Shown here: positions 1,398 through 18,821 of the stretch, piece by piece
Layout: every line of letters starts with the position of its first letter
Numbering within the stretch: position 1 is the first letter of the stretch
The notes under the pieces: model-generated
Databases searched by the model: none
What the model saw: the letters and a program-made list of their open reading frames with translations, nothing else
Told to the model about the DNA's origin: nothing
Program-made: the position numbers and the translations under genes
IMG/VR virus record: IMGVR_UViG_3300046462_000143
Coordinates: 1-23,226 of that record
Reading direction: 5' to 3' (one strand)
Origin: a virus
Length of the DNA stretch: 23,226 nt

Positions 1398-2498
1398 TCA
1401 GATCGCGACCTCGCCACCCAGTGTAGAAAACGAACCCGGCGCGTTCTGGTTGTTCCATTCGGCCGTGATCCAATCGGGACCGCGCGTTGAATGCGACCAA
1501 CGGAACTCATCGTATTTGGCCGTCGTGAACCCGTTGAACCCGATGCCGAGACAGAGATTCGCCGTAGAGCCGGGCGGATGGTTCAGGTCTCCTGGCGTTG
1601 CCGTATAGGTGCTTAAAAGTGATGCGTTTTTATAGAACTTCCATGTCGACGTTCCACCCGACTTTGACCAGGTGACGTGGAGCAAGCATGGCGTGCCGAC
1701 ACTCAGCGTTTGGCTGGTGTCGCGGTAATTGCCATCGGCATAGAATTGCAGCGTCCCCGCGTTGTTCTGGATGAGCATGAATGGAAACGTGTCCGTCACA
1801 TTCGGCGGAGTCCCAGTCGTGGTCTCGAATAGACCTTTCTGGCCACTATTTGAACCCGGAGTCACCCAAAAAGACGCCGTGAGGTTGCTGGCTGGAAACG
1901 CGCCCTCAACGACATAGAGGTATTCATTCGCTGTGATGTCCATGCCACCATCGATCACGCCCGTTGTGGCGGTCGGTGAGCCGGTCGCACTATCCACCCC
2001 ATTGGTCGACTTGACGCCGTTGGCGCCGCTTGACGTTGAATCGGCAACAGATAGCGTGGAACCATCCGTGTAGTGGTGAACGACCTTAAAATTCGTATCC
2101 CAGACGTTCGGCGCATCAGAGACGTCCGTCGTGTCGGCGGTAGCACCATACTTGAGATAGAACACCGTATCAGAGGTGTGCGAGACGGTCGGCACCTTGA
2201 TGTGCATAATGACGTTGCCGGTCGTCGCACCGTACACTTCCCATTCGAATTTCAGGAGCGTGGTGAGGCCGACATCTGAATAGGGCCGAATGCTATTTTT
2301 GCCAGCCGTGTTGTCGACATGACCACCATTCGCGACAGTTTTGAATGTCGTATCGGTGAAACTGAGTAGCACGGGGAAATCGGTCGCATCGGAGGCGCCG
2401 ACCTTTGTATGATCGATGGTAACCGTACGATAGAATCCATTCGCGCCACCACCGCCGGCAACCGCGAACTCATACGGATTCACCAGCATCGGACTCAT
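1398..2498 (-). CDS. Tail adhesin with DUF2341-like and LamG/ConA-like domains, 366 aa
   Basis: After a short N-terminus with a Gly run (residues 15-18), residues 22-130 match the DUF2341 pattern: 'TVTIDHTKV', 'FPVLLSF', and a strand-rich stretch ending 'TVFYLKYG'. Residues 138-335 look like a LamG/concanavalin A-like jelly roll ('LTASFWV', 'LLHVTWSKSGGTSTWKFYKN', 'YDEFRWS'). The terminal 'RGPDWITAEWNNQN' is typical of DUF2341-LamG proteins. The likely role is a virion receptor-binding or glycan-binding protein at the tail tip. The start overlaps the stop of the upstream tail fibre gene as ATGA, so the two are probably made together. The ligand cannot be deduced. Domain assignment is from recalled sequence patterns, not a search. 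Confidence 0.8.
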   Translation of the reverse strand: MSPMLVNPYEFAVAGGGGANGFYRTVTIDHTKVGASDATDFPVLLSFTDTTFKTVANGGHVDNTAGKNSIRPYSDVGLTTLLKFEWEVYGATTGNVIMHIKVPTVSHTSDTVFYLKYGATADTTDVSDAPNVWDTNFKVVHHYTDGSTLSVADSTSSGANGVKSTNGVDSATGSPTATTGVIDGGMDITANEYLYVVEGAFPASNLTASFWVTPGSNSGQKGLFETTTGTPPNVTDTFPFMLIQNNAGTLQFYADGNYRDTSQTLSVGTPCLLHVTWSKSGGTSTWKFYKNASLLSTYTATPGDLNHPPGSTANLCLGIGFNGFTTAKYDEFRWSHSTRGPDWITAEWNNQNAPGSFSTLGGEVAI

Positions 2499-3679
2499 GT
2501 TCGCACAACGTTCATCGTGATTTTCGCACCCTTGGTCCCGGTGCCCGCTGTGCCAATGTCGATCGTGATCTCATCGTCATCCGCGAACGTCGTCGGGCTG
2601 GATGTGAGCACGGCCGGTGTGGCCGCCGTCACGCTCGTCTTCTCGCTCGCGTCGATCGTCAACGTCGTCGAGAAGATCGTCGTGCCGTTCTTCTTGATGT
2701 CGAAGGTCGGTGTACCGGAACTGGAGACTGTGTTCACGTTCGCGCGCGGGAGAGCGGTCATGCTGCACGCGAACGGCATCCGGAACGTCAACTTCGCGGT
2801 ACCCGTCGTCAGCGCCGTCGTCTCGTCCGAAATCGCGAACATGAAGACTTCTGGTTGCTTCGCGACGGCGTTGTCGGTGTAGGCTGTGCTGGCACCCTTC
2901 GTCGAATTGTCGCCGGCCGTTTGCGTGCCGACGACGGGGTTGGTGAGTGTCGGCCCCGACGCAAAGACCGCCGCGCCGGTTCCAGTCTCATCGCTCAAGA
3001 CACCCGCGAGCTGCGCGCTTGTCGTCGCGGCGAACTGCGATAAGGGATTCGCGACCAACGCGTCGCCACTACCGACACTCGACCATTTTACCCCTGTGGT
3101 CTGTGTTGAGTCAGCGACCAGCGCTTGTCCATTCGTACCGACGGGCAGTTTGTTCAGCGTACTCGCAGCTGAACCAACCAACAGGTCGCCCTTCGCGACT
3201 GTGGCCGGAACACTATTCCCGTTGATCTTCGCGACCGTGGGGTTCGGATAGGTGTTCGAGAGGTCGCCGCCCGCAGCACCCGTGGGCGATGCGCCGGTGG
3301 TCGCCGCATCCACACCGCGCCAATCTTGGAGGACCGTAATCAGTCCGGCCGACGTCGTGACCTTGGCCATCGGGAGAGAGCCGGTCGTAAACCCGGTTCC
3401 ATTCCGAGAGACGACACCGACTGCCGTTCGCTCGACGTAGTTGACTGAGTTGTCCGCGAGAATCACCGAGCCATCGGCGATCTTCGAGAAGACACCCGAG
3501 CCGAAGATCACACCGCCGTAGTAGTGGTAACCGAGCGCTGACGATGCGTCAGGATTAAACGCCCAATCGATGCGCGCCCAGGCGTCCAAGCGGTGGAGGT
3601 CTGCGTTGACGTCCGCACCCCATCCGTTCTGCCCGGTCGTGAAATCGAGGACCGTGCCCTTGTCCGTCGTGTTGCTCAT
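2495..3679 (-). CDS. Tail fibre protein, 394 aa
   Basis: The protein has modular fibre architecture. The N-terminal region (residues 1-125) includes 'GQNGWGADVNADLHRLDAWA' and is the likely virion-attachment part. Residues 137-160 carry the common fibre motif 'GGDLSNTYPNPTVAKINGN', and residues 163-200 the 'LLVGSAASTLNKLPVGTNG' collar-type motif. Residues 208-262 carry 'LAGVLSDETGTGAAVFASGP', also widespread in phage fibres. Residues 278-394 form a Thr/Ala-rich beta domain ('LTFRMPFACSMTALPRANV', 'FDIKKNGTTIF') like the C-terminal sandwich of many fibre proteins. It is probably a trimeric short-tail fibre. The ATG at 3679 is preceded by GGGAG at 3684-3688 and by a stem-loop at 3690-3703. The 3' end overlaps the LamG-type adhesin gene. 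Confidence 0.8.
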   Translation of the reverse strand: MSNTTDKGTVLDFTTGQNGWGADVNADLHRLDAWARIDWAFNPDASSALGYHYYGGVIFGSGVFSKIADGSVILADNSVNYVERTAVGVVSRNGTGFTTGSLPMAKVTTSAGLITVLQDWRGVDAATTGASPTGAAGGDLSNTYPNPTVAKINGNSVPATVAKGDLLVGSAASTLNKLPVGTNGQALVADSTQTTGVKWSSVGSGDALVANPLSQFAATTSAQLAGVLSDETGTGAAVFASGPTLTNPVVGTQTAGDNSTKGASTAYTDNAVAKQPEVFMFAISDETTALTTGTAKLTFRMPFACSMTALPRANVNTVSSSGTPTFDIKKNGTTIFSTTLTIDASEKTSVTAATPAVLTSSPTTFADDDEITIDIGTAGTGTKGAKITMNVVRT

Positions 3680-9466: not shown

Positions 9467-10024
9467 TTATCTCCCGGTGCTGGTTCGGTACTGCGTGTTT
9501 CTCATGTCGGTGCGGTCGTTGGAGTTGCGCTGGTAGATCCCGTACGTCTGCGCCGCACCAGACAGCAAACTGGAATAGCTATTCGCCGTGTAGCCCGCCG
9601 CGGCCTGCTGTCCACCGAACTTCGCCAGCTTCCCTTGCTGCCGGTAATTGATGCCTTCGACCGTGTAACCCCACGCTTCACGGGCTGCGTTGTTCCGGAT
9701 CGTCAGCGCGTCGAGCTCGCCCAACCCCGCCTCACTCGCTTGCACGTCGGCCGCAGACCCGGACGAGATGTCCACGCCCTGTGCTGCGAGTGCCGCGCGG
9801 CTCGAGCCGATGTTTTGCCGCGTGGCCATCCGTTGCCGCGATTCGTCGACTTGCCCGCGCTGTAATGCGTCCTGCGCTTGCGCGTCGGCCAGTGACGCAT
9901 TCTGGTTGTCGATGTTCGACTCGTATTCGCCTTGGGCCTTCGCGGCGGCGGCTTGGCGTTGGTTGCCGATGAAACTTGTCGCGGTCTGCCCAACACTCGC
10001 GACTAAGGCGATCGTGGCACCCAT
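9467..10024 (-). CDS. T7 gp14-like internal virion core protein, 185 aa
   Basis: The N-terminal hydrophobic stretch 'MGATIALVASVGQTATSFIG' is followed by a long Gln/Ala/Asp-rich helix with 'ALQRGQVDESRQRMATRQNIG'. Next comes the signature-like 'SRAALAAQGVDISSGSAADV', which is highly typical of the T7 gp14 / virion core protein family in podoviruses and relatives. The C-terminus is Tyr/Gln/Asn-rich. In T7, gp14 is ejected first and forms a channel in the outer membrane. The same role is inferred here from family and gene order (nozzle, gp14, larger internal proteins). The ATG overlaps the stop of the upstream gene (TAATG), with a good GGAGGTG ribosome site inside that gene. Confidence 0.82.
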   Translation of the reverse strand: MGATIALVASVGQTATSFIGNQRQAAAAKAQGEYESNIDNQNASLADAQAQDALQRGQVDESRQRMATRQNIGSSRAALAAQGVDISSGSAADVQASEAGLGELDALTIRNNAAREAWGYTVEGINYRQQGKLAKFGGQQAAAGYTANSYSSLLSGAAQTYGIYQRNSNDRTDMRNTQYRTSTGR

Positions 10025-11091
10025 TAGGCACCTCCAGGGAGATAGCCCTGCGGCACGACCGCGAGGACGGTATGCGGCGTCGGGTCGACCGACCGGATGA
10101 AGATGCGACCGTGTGAGTTCCAGTCGAGCGACAGAATGTTCACGTCCGAATAGTCCGAAGTGAGCACTTCATAGTTAGGGTCCGTGGGGATCGGCATTTC
10201 GCGCAAGTCCTCGAGCGGATCGACCGCGTCATTGGTCGGCGGCTGACGACCATAGAATGCCGGGCGGGATTGCAGCAGCATGACGCCGATCTTCGTGATG
10301 TCGATCTTGTTGATTTTCAAGCTCGGGCCTTGCGGCCGATCGATGTCGAGCGTTTCGAGATCGCTCAGATACGGCAGACCCACAAAGACGTGGGTATAGA
10401 AGTCGCCGAGCTGCACAACGCCCGAAATGACCTGCCGGAGTGTGATGCGCGCATTATACGGTGAGCCGACGACGTGATCGTCGCCCATGATCGCCACGAA
10501 CTCGCCCTCGAGATGATCGACGCCCGCGACCTGATCGATCGCTTTATCCCAGACCGTGATGTCACCGCTCTGCATCCCGGTCGGGATCGCAACATTCCCA
10601 ACGCCCGTCACAACCGTACTCGACGTAAACCCCGTGATCGTGAACCGGACCTCGCTCCCGTGAAGAATCAGCACGTTCCCTACGTCGCCACTGACGAAGA
10701 CCGGCTCCGAGGCGGTGAGGGTCAACGTTTCGCCTGCGGCCCACGTACTCCCGCCGCTTAGCGCGAGACTGACGCCGGGGGACAATCCATCGTTCGTCGA
10801 GACGTGCCGCCCGTCATATTCAAGCGTCGAATCCATGTAGAACGCCCCACCGCGCGCGGCGGCACTGTTGGGCGCGCCGATCGTGGGCGGCGTGACGGGC
10901 GGCGGCGGAGGGGGCGGCGGCGGGGCGGCGGCGGCCATCGTCCAGACCACTTGCTTGCCGATCGCCGAGACGCGCATCCCGTTGTGGACCGGGAACGTGA
11001 CCTGTTTCCCGATCGCAGAGGCACGATCCCCCTGGACCACAGTAAAGACGACCTGTTTTCCAACGGAGGAGACGCGATCGGCGCCAGCCAT
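10024..11091 (-). CDS. C-terminal half of a split tail nozzle, with N-terminal repeats and polyproline linker, 355 aa
   Basis: Residues 5-52 are three copies of a 17-residue repeat built on 'RVSxxGKQVxF', followed by a run of nine prolines (57-65). From about residue 82 the sequence reads like the C-terminal third of phage tail nozzle (P22 gp10 / T7 gp12-type) proteins: 'AFYMDSTLEYDG', 'VDHLEGEFVAIMGD', 'HVFVGLPYLSDLETLDI', 'LREMPIPTDPNYE', 'WNSHGRIFIRSVDPTPHTVLAVVP'. In related phages this region is continuous with the nozzle N-terminal part, which here sits in a separate gene at 12294-14549. The likely role is the distal tail nozzle, assembled from two chains. The start is ATG at 11091, 16 nt after the previous stop, with no strong Shine-Dalgarno. 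Confidence 0.75.
   Translation of the reverse strand: MAGADRVSSVGKQVVFTVVQGDRASAIGKQVTFPVHNGMRVSAIGKQVVWTMAAAAPPPPPPPPPVTPPTIGAPNSAAARGGAFYMDSTLEYDGRHVSTNDGLSPGVSLALSGGSTWAAGETLTLTASEPVFVSGDVGNVLILHGSEVRFTITGFTSSTVVTGVGNVAIPTGMQSGDITVWDKAIDQVAGVDHLEGEFVAIMGDDHVVGSPYNARITLRQVISGVVQLGDFYTHVFVGLPYLSDLETLDIDRPQGPSLKINKIDITKIGVMLLQSRPAFYGRQPPTNDAVDPLEDLREMPIPTDPNYEVLTSDYSDVNILSLDWNSHGRIFIRSVDPTPHTVLAVVPQGYLPGGA
10936..11079 (-). repeat. Tandem 51-bp coding repeat (three units, last one partial)
   Basis: At the 5' end of the 355-residue nozzle-half gene three units encode DRVSSVGKQVVFTVVQG (11029-11079), DRASAIGKQVTFPVHNG (10978-11028) and MRVSAIGKQVVWTM (10936-10977). Units 1 and 2 are each exactly 17 codons. 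Short RVSQ-type beta repeats of this kind occur near the ends of phage tail proteins. They could form a small beta stack at the tail tip. Confidence 0.75.
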
Positions 11092-11107
11092 GCTAGTTCA
11101 CCATTGG

Positions 11108-12283
11108 CTACGCGATCCGGCGCGCGCCGACTTCTGCGGCGTCGCAGTTCGCAATCGTCCAGGCCGCCGAGGTATGCGGGTCGACCTGGTATCCCGGTGC
11201 GGGACCGACGAGCGTCGAGACGTTATAGCCGGCCGGTGTGGCGCGATCAGCCCCATTGTCGACCTCTGTGGCATTCGAGATGAGCACCGTTCGATTCGTA
11301 TCCGCGCTCGCGTCCGATTTTCGGAGAATGACAAGCGGCGTCACCTCATCAATCGACGATGTTTCCGCTGGCATCGCTTGACAGGTGAACGAGGCGGCTT
11401 TGGGCAAGCTCGTATCGTCGAAGTTGATATACGTCGTATCGCCGTCGCACGCCTGATCATCAACGCATAGGACTCTCGTCGAGTCGCCGACCGCTGTGCC
11501 TGCCGTGTACGTGCCTGCGGCGGTCGCGTGACGATAACTCACGCGCTTGTCGCCGATACGACCAGTGCCAGAGCAATCGTGAATGACGAGATCCGTAAAA
11601 ATGCGGGCCGGGAAGGCGAGGGGCTGCACATAGCCGACCTTCCCACTCCCACCGAGACTATTCCGTGTCGACACGCCAGACAGATCGAGGACGAGCGTGC
11701 CATCGGCGTAGACCCGTACCCCACCGTTCGACGCATGAATCAACTGCCCACTGGCCGGTGGAACGATTTCGATATGGGTGAAGTTCCCGTTGGCACCATT
11801 CAACCCGACCGGCAGGACCGTCGTTGATATGCCGATGATCGTTCCTGGCCCCCCACTGCCTGATCCGGTGCCATTCTTCGCGCAGATCCGCCCATCGGCC
11901 AGCGTTTCGATTGAGAGATGAAGCAACGGGACGTCAAACGTGCCGTTACCGTGCCCGTCATCATCCCAGAACTCGCAGAGGACTGATCCGCCGACATTGC
12001 CAGCTTGTTGAAACGCGAACGCCACGCCGATCGAATGCGCCGAGGTATCCACGGCATCAGCAAACCCCAGTGTCGTCGCACGGAGGCCAGCATAGCCACC
12101 TTTCGAGGCGTAGCCCATATCGGCGCCGGATCCCCGACCCCATTGCGCGAGCGATCCTTCGAACCCAACCTGGACCGAGCCAAAGTTGTTATTCGTCGAC
12201 CGCACGACTGAGAGATAGACCTGTGACCAGGCGATGCTCCCATACCCGAACGACTCGCGCCAGAGAATGACTGGGGCCGTCAT
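11108..12283 (-). CDS. Lectin-like tail protein lying between the two nozzle halves, 391 aa
   Basis: The protein is beta-rich and Gly/Asp/Asn-rich. Residues 5-245 look like a concanavalin A/LamG-type jelly roll ('AHSIGVAFAFQQAG', 'THIEIVPP', 'VRVYADGTLVLDLSGV'), ending in 'ARIFTDLVIHDCSGTGRIGDKRV'. This closing motif is shared by many phage minor tail proteins. Residues 250-391 form a second domain with 'TRVLCVDDQACDGDTTYINFDD', also typical of that tail-protein group. The likely role is a structural and glycan-binding tail component. GAGGA 8 nt upstream of the ATG gives a clear ribosome site, and the gene starts 10 nt after the N-half nozzle stop. It has no endonuclease motif, so it does not look like an intron or intein cargo gene. 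Confidence 0.65.
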   Translation of the reverse strand: MTAPVILWRESFGYGSIAWSQVYLSVVRSTNNNFGSVQVGFEGSLAQWGRGSGADMGYASKGGYAGLRATTLGFADAVDTSAHSIGVAFAFQQAGNVGGSVLCEFWDDDGHGNGTFDVPLLHLSIETLADGRICAKNGTGSGSGGPGTIIGISTTVLPVGLNGANGNFTHIEIVPPASGQLIHASNGGVRVYADGTLVLDLSGVSTRNSLGGSGKVGYVQPLAFPARIFTDLVIHDCSGTGRIGDKRVSYRHATAAGTYTAGTAVGDSTRVLCVDDQACDGDTTYINFDDTSLPKAASFTCQAMPAETSSIDEVTPLVILRKSDASADTNRTVLISNATEVDNGADRATPAGYNVSTLVGPAPGYQVDPHTSAAWTIANCDAAEVGARRIA

Positions 12284-12293
12284 TGTATGATCC

Positions 12294-14549
12294 TCATGTT
12301 ACGGTGACCGCCCATGAGCTCACCGCGCTCCAGGCAGAGATAGTTCCATCCGAGAACTCGTAGCGCACGCGCAACCAATACGTGCCGGTCGTAAGCACTC
12401 TGGTGACGGCACTCGTGATGACGAACGTTCCGACATCCGCGAACTCGCCATCGGTCGGCGTGATTGATTGCGGGCCGGCGATCTGTAGCCGACTCACCGG
12501 AATGTCGGTCAACGCCGTCGAATCGGTCGACGCCGGCCACGTAATCGTGAGATCGGTTGATCCTGTATTGGCGGTCTGCGCCGTCACGGTCGGCGCCGCG
12601 CTCGGCGGGTCACGAGTCGGCGTCACGCCAATCGTCGTAAACCGCGTCGCCGTCACTGGCCCCAAATAATCGGAGAAGACCGTCCCGAGTTGATGGCGTG
12701 CGCGCCACTCGTACGCGACCCCAGACAGGAGACCCGTCATCACCTTGCTTTGCGCACCAGCGGTCACGTCGCTCAAGACGGTCCATGTCGCCGCGACAAT
12801 CTCACGTACCTCGACCGATGTCACCGCAAGCACGTCGCCCGCGATCCAGTTGGCCGTTGCACCCGTCGAGAGAATCGCCGTGGTGCTCGGTGTGGTCGGT
12901 GGCGAGAGCGGGGACGTCGACGGAGGCGGAGGCGGAGGCGGAGGCGGAGGTGTGACGATCGGACCGGCTGCGCCTTCCTCAGGCGTCGCGAAGACGGGCA
13001 ACACGATGCTCGTCGTCTGCCGTTCGATGTACCGAACGTATGCACCGTTGATCAACCGCTTGACGCACCAGTAGACCCAGTGGCTCTTGTCCTCGGGGAC
13101 GACACACACGTTCTCGAGGAAGCCCTTGGTATCGTGCCGATGCCACGCCAGCACTTCTTGCTCAGGGATGTACGTCAGTCCGAGCAACACGCCATCCGAT
13201 CGCACGGCCCAGACCAGATGCGGCGGCTCTTGCTGGAACGTCCAATCGATGATCTTGAAGCCGTCGACCAGATGACTCGAGAAGATCGTGATGTCGCCGC
13301 CGATGAACGTGTACGTGCCGAGCTGGAAATTGGCTTGGAGCTCGCGCACCGCGGCACCGAGCGCCTGCACATAGAGCATCCGCTGCCCGGCTTTGATTGG
13401 TCTGAGCGACGACATGCCGTCGTAACTGGCGATGCGCGAGTTGACCGAGGTCGGCGTCAAGACGCCGTTCCCGTCGCCGTCGACAATCCAGTCCGGCCCT
13501 TCGGTGCCGATCACCAACCGACCGAGCGTCAGAATCTGTCGAATCGCGTCGACCTCGTCCGAGACCAAGCGGAACGTGATCGCGTCGTCATCTTGGACGT
13601 AGACCGAGACGTTGAAGTTGTGATAGAATCCGGTGCGCGAGCACCAGACCGTGTCAGGATTGTTGTTGCTATTCGCGAAGATGAGCCGTTGCTGGTAGTA
13701 GGCGACGACTGAGGGATAGTTGTTGAGGCTCGAAAAGAGATCTTTGACGACAGGCGGTTGCAGTGTGATGTCTGGGACGACGCCGACATCCTGAAACCCT
13801 GTGGTGCTCGTCTGCCCAATGAAGGCGTAGACCCCATCGGTCCCGGTATCCGGCACGCGCTTGTAGACGTTGTACGAATCGGCCCCTGTGACGGCGGTCC
13901 ACGTCAGCGCAATCGGGAATTTCGACGTCGCAGCCCGCGGTAAGGTGTTGGGCGTGCCGAGGATTGATTCCTCACCAGCAATCGAGACAGCCGTCAACGC
14001 ATACGTCGAGAAGTTAGTCGGCGGGCCAGCGGGGACGAGTCCGCCAGACAGCACCGGTTGCCCAGGAGCGGCGATGCCCGACCCAAAGGCAATCGGAGTC
14101 AGTGTCCAGTTCTGGTTTCCGAACCGCTTCAATTCGTGCGGCGGATACCCAGGATGCACCAGCGTGACGACATCGCCCGACTGGATGTACTGAATGTCGG
14201 GCAAGTCCGTTTCGATGTACGGGCTTACGATCTCGTAGGCGTTCGCAGGCGTCACCGGATCAGTGACCACGCCGCCGTTCTGCAGAAAGCGAACGTAGTG
14301 CTCGCCGAACTCCAGCACGAACGACTGCCGGATGTTGAACACGAACGGGATCAGCCGGACTTTCTTGCTCGAGTCCTTGACGGGCGTGATGAACTCGGTC
14401 CCCGGTCGCTTGGTCGCGCCGCCTTGCCGCATCACGACGTAGTTCCGACAGGTGCGCAACCCGATCTCGTACGCGGCAGCATCAGTCCGCGCATGCAAGG
14501 CCGGGGCGATTTCACCCTTGGCGAAACTCCGTTGCGTGGTCGACGCCAC
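12294..14549 (-). CDS. N-terminal part of a split tail nozzle fused to Fn3-like domains, 751 aa
   Basis: Residues 1-150 carry the nozzle N-terminal signature ('FAKGEIAPALHARTDAAAYE', 'CRNYVVMRQGGATKRPGTEF', 'SFVLEFGEHYVRF', 'GDVVTLVHPGYPPHELKR'). Residues 165-262 form the Fn3-like insert usual in these nozzles. Residues 280-510 include 'YYQQRLIFANSNNNPDTVW' and end at 'YVRYIERQ'. Normal nozzles would continue into a 'FFVDSGLTYDG'-type strand here. Instead there is a linker, ten prolines (534-543) and about 200 residues of two Fn3-like modules ('WTVLSDVTAG', 'YEWRARHQLG'; 'LTITWPASTDS', 'YWLRVRYEFSDG'). The missing C-terminal part is in the gene at 10024-11091. The protein is the tail nozzle that extends the portal channel. 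The start is GTG, overlapping the adaptor stop (TAGTG). Confidence 0.82.
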   Translation of the reverse strand: MASTTQRSFAKGEIAPALHARTDAAAYEIGLRTCRNYVVMRQGGATKRPGTEFITPVKDSSKKVRLIPFVFNIRQSFVLEFGEHYVRFLQNGGVVTDPVTPANAYEIVSPYIETDLPDIQYIQSGDVVTLVHPGYPPHELKRFGNQNWTLTPIAFGSGIAAPGQPVLSGGLVPAGPPTNFSTYALTAVSIAGEESILGTPNTLPRAATSKFPIALTWTAVTGADSYNVYKRVPDTGTDGVYAFIGQTSTTGFQDVGVVPDITLQPPVVKDLFSSLNNYPSVVAYYQQRLIFANSNNNPDTVWCSRTGFYHNFNVSVYVQDDDAITFRLVSDEVDAIRQILTLGRLVIGTEGPDWIVDGDGNGVLTPTSVNSRIASYDGMSSLRPIKAGQRMLYVQALGAAVRELQANFQLGTYTFIGGDITIFSSHLVDGFKIIDWTFQQEPPHLVWAVRSDGVLLGLTYIPEQEVLAWHRHDTKGFLENVCVVPEDKSHWVYWCVKRLINGAYVRYIERQTTSIVLPVFATPEEGAAGPIVTPPPPPPPPPPSTSPLSPPTTPSTTAILSTGATANWIAGDVLAVTSVEVREIVAATWTVLSDVTAGAQSKVMTGLLSGVAYEWRARHQLGTVFSDYLGPVTATRFTTIGVTPTRDPPSAAPTVTAQTANTGSTDLTITWPASTDSTALTDIPVSRLQIAGPQSITPTDGEFADVGTFVITSAVTRVLTTGTYWLRVRYEFSDGTISAWSAVSSWAVTVT
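12922..12951 (+). repeat. Hexanucleotide microsatellite (GGAGGC)4 GGAGGT encoding polyproline
   Basis: Five perfect or near-perfect 6-bp units lie inside the 751-residue nozzle gene and encode its proline run (residues 534-543) on the minus strand. Slippage would change linker length by two prolines per unit without shifting the frame. A related GGC-rich stretch at 10897-10923 encodes the proline run in the other nozzle half. Confidence 0.85.
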
Positions 14550-15208
14550 TATCGGGTCCGGATGAAGGACGACTCGGCCGGCTGGTCCGGTTGGCGTTCA
14601 TTCCACGCCGTGTCCTGCGCGTTCGCGATCGCCATTTGATACAACTGGAACGCCCGCTGTCCCAGCTTGTTCGGATCACCCCCGGTCAGGGACGGCGCCA
14701 TGTAGAACGCGAGCTTGAGCGAGAACGCTTGCGCGAAGTCGGCAGGGAAGCGCGCTTCGGCCGTGATCGCCGCCGTGTATTCGAGTTGGGGGATCTCAGG
14801 CGTCGTCGCTGTCGCGGCCACATGGGCCAGATCAGTGAACAGCAGTGCGCCCGTCGCATCCGAACCCAACGCGAATGGAATCCGCGTCTCAGGGACATCA
14901 AGCCGGGTCCCAGTCAACAACCGCCGGCAGTACAACGCATCCGCCGGCACTCGGTAACTGAATTGCCAATCGAGATTGACCGGAATCGTATCGGTTCCAC
15001 CGACGACCGCGCCGAGCGTCGCGAACCGCTTCGCGAACGGCCATTGGAAGTCGGCCAGGATCTCGTCGCGTGTCTGGTCATAGAACGCGGCGCACGCTTG
15101 GGCGTTCTCCGTCGTCTCGGTGAGATTGGCAATGGGCTTCCCAATCGCCAAATGACGAAGGGCCGCGTTGCAAATGCTCGCGGTCGTCGGCGCGAACTGG
15201 ATTGGCAC
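14549..15208 (-). CDS. Head-tail adaptor (T7 gp11 / P22 gp4-like), 219 aa
   Basis: The N-terminal helical part contains 'ICNAALRHLAIGKPIANLTE' and 'ACAAFYDQTRDEILADFQWPFAKR', the classic pattern of podovirus tail tubular A / adaptor proteins. A strand 'WQFSYRVPADALYCRRLL' follows, with C-terminal helices 'FAQAFSLKLAFYMAPSLTG' and 'LYQMAIANAQDTAWNERQPD'. The protein would form a ring of twelve subunits under the portal and hold the nozzle. Position agrees: it comes directly before the nozzle gene, which it overlaps as TAGTG. The start is GTG at 15208, just after the upstream stop at 15212, and the length is normal for the family. Confidence 0.85.
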   Translation of the reverse strand: MPIQFAPTTASICNAALRHLAIGKPIANLTETTENAQACAAFYDQTRDEILADFQWPFAKRFATLGAVVGGTDTIPVNLDWQFSYRVPADALYCRRLLTGTRLDVPETRIPFALGSDATGALLFTDLAHVAATATTPEIPQLEYTAAITAEARFPADFAQAFSLKLAFYMAPSLTGGDPNKLGQRAFQLYQMAIANAQDTAWNERQPDQPAESSFIRTR

Positions 15209-17797: not shown

Positions 17798-18451
17798 TCA
17801 TTCAGGCTCGGGCGTGGTCTTCCCGTAGAACTTGTTGACCGTGGACTTCTGGCCAGTGCCGGTCGGAATCCCTCCGTTGGCCATCGTCGACTCCGACATC
17901 GCGCCGCCGATCTTGGCGAGAAACTTGAGCACTGTTGGATGCCGGCCGTAGCCGGTGTCATCCAGAAATTGCCTGAGTTCGTCGCCACCGAACCGCGTGA
18001 CGGCTTTGCCGGACAGCTCAACGGACTGGCTGAACTTCTCACCGCCGATGTCAGGATCCGCCTTCGCGGCCTTGGTCCACGTGTCCTGCTGCTTCTTCCA
18101 TTCCTCCCCGGTGCCGGGCGTCCACGCGTCGAGCAATGCCGTCTGGGCTTTCGTCGCTGCATCGGTCGTGGCAGCGGTGAGAGCTTTCTCGCGGTCGACG
18201 GCGTCCGCGACCTCGGAGTCGAGGAGTCTCTGTCCCGCGTCGTTTGTGAGTCCCAGCGCGCGCGCTTTGGCGGCTGTCCTCTCGACGATCGCCGGATCAA
18301 CGGTCGACCCTTGAGGCAACTTCAATTCGTACTTCTCAGGTACGACAGGAACCGCCGTGACGGGCGGTACCGTGTCAGTCGGTGAAACGGTCGTGTCGGC
18401 CGGCGGTGTCGCTGGAGGCGTGACCGCGGGCGCGTCAAGCACTTCACTCAT
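17798..18451 (-). CDS. Scaffold / head assembly protein, 217 aa
   Basis: ATG at 18451 is chosen because GAGGAG lies 7 nt upstream; the GTG nine codons earlier (18478) has no such site. A Pro/Thr/Val-rich disordered N-terminus (about residues 5-38) leads into 'YELKLPQGSTVDPAIVE' and a helical, charged, Ala-rich body. This ends in 'LRQFLDDTGYGRHPTVLKFL' and 'KIGGAMSE'. That pattern is typical of proteins encoded directly before the capsid gene in BPP-1-like phages, annotated as scaffold or head assembly proteins. No protease triad is evident. The gene overlaps the end of the Bbp19-like gene by 8 nt, and the capsid gene follows after 114 bp. Confidence 0.75.
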   Translation of the reverse strand: MSEVLDAPAVTPPATPPADTTVSPTDTVPPVTAVPVVPEKYELKLPQGSTVDPAIVERTAAKARALGLTNDAGQRLLDSEVADAVDREKALTAATTDAATKAQTALLDAWTPGTGEEWKKQQDTWTKAAKADPDIGGEKFSQSVELSGKAVTRFGGDELRQFLDDTGYGRHPTVLKFLAKIGGAMSESTMANGGIPTGTGQKSTVNKFYGKTTPEPE

Positions 18452-18821
18452 TGTCCAACTCCTCGAATGGTTCGTCACTACGTGGTGCTGGCTCGTCGAT
18501 GTTCTCCGCTAGCCGTTTCGCGTCCTGCTGCATCAGGATGTAGGCGTTCGCATCAGCCTTTCCGATCTCGCCCAACAGGTAGTGCCCGAGATCCTGCTTG
18601 CCCGCGTTGTAGTAGATCCGTGCACTCGTCTCCATGATCGACTCGAACACGCCGCACTTTTCCAAGAAGCGCCACAACACGCGCCGCCCTTCGATCGTCC
18701 GCAAGACGTCGCGGAGTTCGGCCACCTCGCGTTCCTGTCGACGCGCTTCCGACTCCTTCCCGCGTTTGACTTGCTTGGCATCCGAGGCGTTGCGGACGAG
18801 GGCGCGTTGCGCGGTGCCCAT
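18444..18821 (-). CDS. Bbp19-like phage protein, 125 aa
   Basis: 'RALVRNASDAKQVKRGKESE' leads to a charged helix and then the conserved core 'LRDVLRTIEGRRVLWRFLEK', 'CGVFE', 'NAGKQDLGHYLLGEI', 'ADANAYILMQQDA'. This matches the Bbp19 family pattern (small protein between portal and scaffold in BPP-1 and many other phages). The molecular role of the family is not established, though position suggests head assembly. An acidic C-terminal tail (PRSDEPFEELDNE) overlaps the start and ribosome site of the scaffold gene. The ATG follows directly after the portal stop (TAAATG). Confidence 0.85.
   Translation of the reverse strand: MGTAQRALVRNASDAKQVKRGKESEARRQEREVAELRDVLRTIEGRRVLWRFLEKCGVFESIMETSARIYYNAGKQDLGHYLLGEIGKADANAYILMQQDAKRLAENIDEPAPRSDEPFEELDNE

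Follow-up and report, generated by a model that had tools for sequence, protein, structure and literature searches.

The nozzle, a hexamer seated on a dodecameric adaptor, is highly conserved among podovirus proteins and holds the pressurised genome, and a break in its chain is therefore unexpected. In T7 gp12 (PDB 6r21 and 7ey7), a single chain forms propeller, tip, fibre dock and platform in this order. A loop of propeller blade 3 carries the tip as an insertion, after which the propeller closes (disulfide C504-C554). Next comes the fibre dock, which lies on the outer surface and links the propeller with the platform, and the first 45 residues of the chain also contribute to the platform barrel (PMC6702177). 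T7 has its fibres as separate proteins, trimers of gp17 that are clasped between gp11 and gp12. The closest solved relative of the nozzle described here, that of the Cobetia phage Carin-1 (PDB 8ck1), is likewise one chain, of 830 aa, with only a short, module-free loop at the junction. Bbp13 of Bordetella phage BPP-1 and gp12 of epsilon15, which belong to the same nozzle family, are encoded by unbroken genes (681 and 825 aa, respectively). The muzzle protein gp44 of phi-crAss001 is a propeller nozzle with large extra domains in propeller loops (PMC10172136); it is one chain from an unsplit gene, with the insertions in or beside blade 3. In SU10, a short-tail-fibre dock loop extending off the propeller serves the nozzle for fibre docking (PMC9509320); this nozzle is again one chain, the fibre being a separate gp16 trimer. 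We found no published split nozzle in the open-access literature. Here we describe a nozzle encoded by two genes, split at the fibre-dock junction and conserved among relatives, which is a real, new form of a known protein, its halves agreeing with T7 gp12 in the succession of propeller, tip, fibre dock and platform.

The window, that is, the whole stretch of DNA analysed, is a virus record of 23,226 bases, in which the structural genes all lie on the minus strand, in the order portal (Head-tail_con), protease, major capsid protein (GP7), adaptor-like protein (phrog_394), the 751-, 391- and 355-aa proteins, gp14-like protein and larger internal proteins (Table 1). The three ORFs in the middle of this order were found on the minus strand where a first-pass annotation had placed them; each has a reading frame different from those of the other two, and gaps of 10 and 16 nt separate them. 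The outer two, hereafter the N-half (751 aa) and the C-half (355 aa), occupy the nozzle slot, with the phrog_394 gene upstream and the phrog_418 gene downstream of the C-half, and the fused nozzle of a related virus, L119, is flanked by the same adaptor and gp14-like order. BPP-1, epsilon15 and Carin-1 also share the structural gene order, the one nozzle gene of BPP-1 and Carin-1 corresponding to three genes in the window. Elsewhere in the window, the protease-like protein (17798-18478, minus strand) matches phrog_30010; nozzle segments match this family too, and it may hold a fused or mis-assembled protein.

Table 1. Features of the split nozzle locus and other tail genes in the window.
Feature	Position	Strand	Evidence or remark
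Protein with a Laminin_G_3 (ConA-like) domain (366 aa) and tail-fibre-like protein (394 aa), respectively	1398-3679 (1398-2498, 2495-3679)	-	side by side, away from nozzle
gp14-like internal virion protein, directly downstream of C-half	9467..10024	-	phrog_418, E 2e-32; Pfam T7_gp14
355-aa protein (nozzle C-half)	10024-11091	-	ORF
C-half core, residues 84-355: putative fibre-dock barrel and C-terminal platform	10027..10842	-	phrog_376, 8ck1_A, LME-1, T7 gp12, Foldseek
Polyproline linker of C-half	10852..10926	-	sequence; pLDDT <50 at residues 68-80
Three 17-residue repeats (RVSAIGKQVVW type), C-half N-terminus	10927..11076	-	repeat profile
391-aa protein (middle gene)	11108-12283	-	ORF, between nozzle halves
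10-nt gap with GAGG before ATG of middle gene	12284..12293	-	sequence
751-aa protein (nozzle N-half)	12294-14549	-	ORF
Second Fn3-like domain, residues ~654-748	12306..12590	-	predicted strands; conserved in L003, L023
First Fn3-like domain after break, residues ~555-627	12669..12887	-	PDB profile search, Fn3 constructs E 8e-11; strands in model
Break point and linker: VLPVFATPEE motif followed by polyproline, with predicted disorder	12873..13010	-	pLDDT <50 at residues 515-559
N-half core, residues 1-513, comprising N-terminal strands and the whole seven-bladed beta-propeller with its internal tip domain	13011..14549	-	phrog_376, 8ck1_A, 6r21
Tip domain (Fn3-like insertion, residues ~158-275), intact within N-half; boundaries approximate	13725..14078	-	matches T7 gp12 blade-3 insertion position (PMC6702177); Fn3-like sequence YALTAV...YNVYK
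Adaptor (gp11-like) gene, directly upstream of N-half	14549..15208	-	phrog_394, E 3e-36

We found that the N-half matches positions 4-532 of the 712 in phrog_376 (PHROG profile, E 9e-149) and the C-half positions 540-706 of 712 (E 4e-21), without overlap, and the two ranges were non-overlapping in four records. In a PDB sequence search, the Carin-1 nozzle (8ck1_A) was the only strong match for both halves, covering 328-562 (best stretch) for the N-half and 575-827 for the C-half. AlphaFold models were built for each half alone, from 61 natural relatives of the N-half and 57 of the C-half, with mean pLDDT values of 80 and 81, respectively. Residues 1-522 of the N-half model aligned to 8ck1_A 7-572 (Z 37.7) and to T7 gp12 (6r21) 15-589 (Z 22.9), and its alignments with the T7, P22 and Carin-1 nozzles and with WD40 propellers indicate a seven-bladed propeller core. 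Residues 81-355 of the C-half model aligned to 8ck1_A 567-830 (Z 14.2), and the model also aligned to the LME-1 nozzle 646-818 (Z 10.1); the alignment to T7 gp12 586-791 was modest (Z 6.4), not above those to unrelated barrels. All 13 Foldseek matches of the C-half with E <= 1e-3 were podovirus nozzles. Full-length nozzle homology (phrog_376 / 8ck1 family) was thus reached by both genes jointly and not by either, and in place of the single chain of this family, four records contain two genes with a third between them. Since the profile, PDB and structure ranges are complementary, the two genes jointly represent one complete nozzle. The first-pass annotation had proposed such a split, asking whether the nozzle alignments of the halves complement each other without overlap, which they do on phrog_376, 8ck1 and T7 gp12. 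It had also named findings that would speak against the proposal, none of which was made: the halves do not match the same region, the 355-aa protein does not belong to another family, and a search of whole records, which are metagenome fragments of 5-32 kb, gave one N and one C match each in the window and three relatives and no second nozzle in any split record. The split of the nozzle into two genes is almost certainly real. Recoding that fuses both chains was considered and rejected, given the 1.2-kb gene, the stop codons and the frame changes between the halves.

The position of the break was assessed by three methods, namely structure alignment ranges (VIA), hhalign and the Pfam PF25675 register, and all placed it at approximately T7 gp12 575-591, after propeller closure and at the start of the fibre dock. 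The ranges of the two models on T7 gp12 meet at 586-589. The hhalign comparison of the fused family, which was made in local mode with low probability and used only alongside the structure ranges, placed the junction at T7 574-603, with the family motif FFVDsGltY opposite AFMDMKIRY of T7. The break is at the junction of propeller and fibre dock, not at the tip; the designation of the C-half barrel as a putative fibre dock rests on T7 topology. The segments on either side were said by the first-pass annotation to be adjacent in one chain in other nozzles, and this was borne out by a junction of 8-21 residues (median 9) in 110 measurable one-ORF nozzles; therefore, no measured unbroken nozzle bears a module at this site. 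The survey of relatives that it had suggested revealed one unbroken ORF with both halves at 196 loci (187 distinct sequences) among about 200 related nozzles, with the present split confined to one clade; the loci were chosen by similarity to the N-half, and the counts are therefore not frequencies in nature.

The order of N-half, middle gene and C-half is kept in three relatives, L003 (751, 397 and 352 aa), L023 (753, 361 and 340 aa) and L002 (an N-half with an added module of ~600 aa, then 332 and 349 aa), and a fifth virus, L192, has an N-half with the same post-break motif, running to the contig end. A tree built from 90 N-halves grouped all five split viruses in one clade (SH-aLRT 100) with one change of state, and the nearest neighbour of this clade was L119 with its fused nozzle, showing that a single break occurred in the ancestor of the clade. 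Among 395 genomes of the phylum of L119, we found no other split nozzle and no indication of a host. When the window was compared with L003, dN/dS was ~0.18-0.28 for the cores of both halves, the N-half extension and the middle gene, similar to the values for the neighbouring adaptor (0.20) and gp14 (0.24) genes. All parts are under similar purifying selection.

The proline runs, the two Fn3-like domains and the three 17-residue repeats are present as first described, and these added modules sit exactly at the break on both halves. The motif VLPVFATPEE after the break is kept in five viruses, and a proline linker with two Fn3-like domains follows in the window, L003 and L023. The Fn3 identity of this extension comes from a 3-sequence profile that matches PDB Fn3 constructs (E 8e-11); a Pfam fn3 match in L023, at 8e-4, falls short of the Pfam cut-off. 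In L002, the break is followed by the unrelated ~600-aa module, which gave a beta-helix match and a weak Ig-like match and has no similarity to the window extension apart from the break motif, whereas the nozzle cores of both halves are still 60-63% identical despite the swapped module. These data show that the modules past the break have been exchanged between relatives (Fn3 pair versus Ig-like and beta-helix), while the cores are stable. When a repeat profile was run on all ORFs of the fetched loci, the 17-residue repeats were found, in 2-3 copies, only in split C-halves, and a tblastn search with the L002 repeats found nothing in cultured phages.

The middle gene is present in all three relatives having both halves (dN/dS ~0.21) and is more variable, with 67, 37 and 21% identity. 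The first-pass annotation was right about an intervening gene; its ConA-like label was not confirmed, as the 391-aa protein gave no Pfam or PDB match above noise, lectin and ConA-like families included. A tblastn search found distant relatives in Brevundimonas phage Delta and Tetraselmis virus S20, located in siphophage tail-tip clusters. At L184:4611-7415 (Tetraselmis viridis virus S20), the middle-gene relative adjoins a gene with several RASQVVIQAL repeats; these resemble the 17-residue repeats of the window C-half, with a repeat profile match below significance, and we suspect a tail cassette common to S20 and the window.

We consider it likely that the window encodes a podovirus nozzle of two chains, broken once at the junction of propeller and fibre dock, that has gained modules and a tail-type gene there. 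The N-half would supply the strands at the N-terminus, the whole of the DNA-gating beta-propeller and the tip, its ring forming the gate and tip. The C-half would supply the fibre-dock barrel and the platform sitting on the adaptor, and, as suggested by T7, would join the first strands of the N-half to complete the platform barrel. Because the T7 platform barrel uses strands from both gp12 ends, the halves would very probably co-assemble into one ring, presumably with a 6:6 stoichiometry. Model certainty was lowest at residues 1-30 of the N-half and ~301-330 of the C-half, where the partner chain would complete the fold; the fit of these regions to a missing partner chain is suggestive only. 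Both new chain ends appear to have gained proline stalks and extra modules, an Fn3 pair or Ig and beta-helix on the N-half and short beta-repeats on the C-half, and a tail-type gene would have been inserted between them. By comparison with T7, the new ends should lie on the outer surface at the fibre-docking place, with the modules projecting sideways. A large folded module is easier to accommodate on a free end than in a tight loop of 9 residues, and this would account for the restriction of modules at this site to split nozzles. The modules may attach to glycans on the cell surface or serve to hold a fibre, of which the middle protein may be a part; it is plausible that receptors would be bound on the fibre-dock side, and that the modules display host contacts is, in our judgement, an evenly balanced question. 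The locus shows that the chain can be cut at this junction, and at which place large modules can be hung with the DNA channel still open. It also offers a testable claim, that two chains rebuild one hexamer through a shared platform barrel, and annotation pipelines expecting one nozzle gene would miss or mislabel such tails.

One alternative is a two-chain nozzle whose modules are purely structural, stabilising the tail or anchoring a fibre encoded elsewhere, with no host contact. Structural proteins of phages are often decorated with Fn3 domains, and this explanation also accommodates a break on the fibre-dock side and the other fibre-like genes at 1398-3679, which are probable receptor-binding genes; given these separate genes, the chief part in receptor binding need not fall to the nozzle modules. 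However, the modules are wholly different between close relatives, and the beta-helix of L002 is a fold typical of glycan-degrading tailspikes, which together look like host-driven exchange. We therefore regard a purely structural role as rather unlikely.

It is very unlikely that the C-half has left the nozzle to become a stand-alone carrier of repeats or fibre. It is indeed a separate chain that has acquired a module of its own, but its platform and adaptor-facing parts are 53-69% conserved across the clade, and no other platform-bearing protein occurs in the records.

The first-pass annotation had suggested that the tip of the nozzle has been opened to display receptor-binding domains. Such an architecture does exist in another virus, L011, in which the nozzle is split at the tip domain (L011:4948-8792; five identical contigs, L011-L015). 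Gene 1 of L011 matches phrog_376 5-158, followed by a GGGGGGIVVPPP linker that bears a module of ~450 aa; gene 2 matches 231-711, its GTG start overlapping the TAG stop of gene 1. In the window, however, the Fn3-like tip domain is continuous within the N-half and the break lies well beyond the tip insertion, making this model extremely improbable here. An assembly error, a frameshift or a decaying pseudogene has a negligible chance of accounting for the locus, for although the interrupted nozzles of L004, L141 and L209 do resemble frameshifts or sequence errors, the window has a whole gene between the halves, a layout shared by three diverged contigs, and purifying selection. In L004 (L004:3483-5967; Pseudomonas phage UFJF_PfDIW6), the nozzle annotation consists of two overlapping genes for tail tubular B, and the second gene repeats ~35 residues of the first, suggesting duplication or assembly error.

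The tip split of L011 is a fission independent of that in the window, at a different loop. A further nozzle, L019:5923-8432 (the same in L020 and L021; three contigs), is split early in the propeller, gene 1 matching phrog_376 5-108 with a long proline-threonine and glycine tail and gene 2 matching 105-708. Both resemble the window in having a two-gene nozzle with a proline-rich stretch at the break, but differ from it in breaking at other loops, with no gene between. We tentatively suggest, as a possibility that is still somewhat doubtful, a recurrent fission of podovirus nozzles in loops on the surface (three or more sites, among them early propeller, tip, and propeller/fibre dock), with two-chain assembly and free ends that would carry exchangeable host-contact modules on proline-rich stalks.

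Two further families, phrog_20269 and phrog_15566, were also matched by the 751-aa protein (window 12294-14549). The former, a 374-aa family, covers nozzle positions 4-158 and the latter, a 552-aa family, the nozzle from about residue 230; these ranges suggest that the two families represent complementary parts of nozzles split at the tip in phages already catalogued. Finally, Limnohabitans phage DC33 (L008, PQ492659) is filed under Inoviridae, yet has a podovirus nozzle and adaptor-type gene order, and its taxonomy looks wrong.
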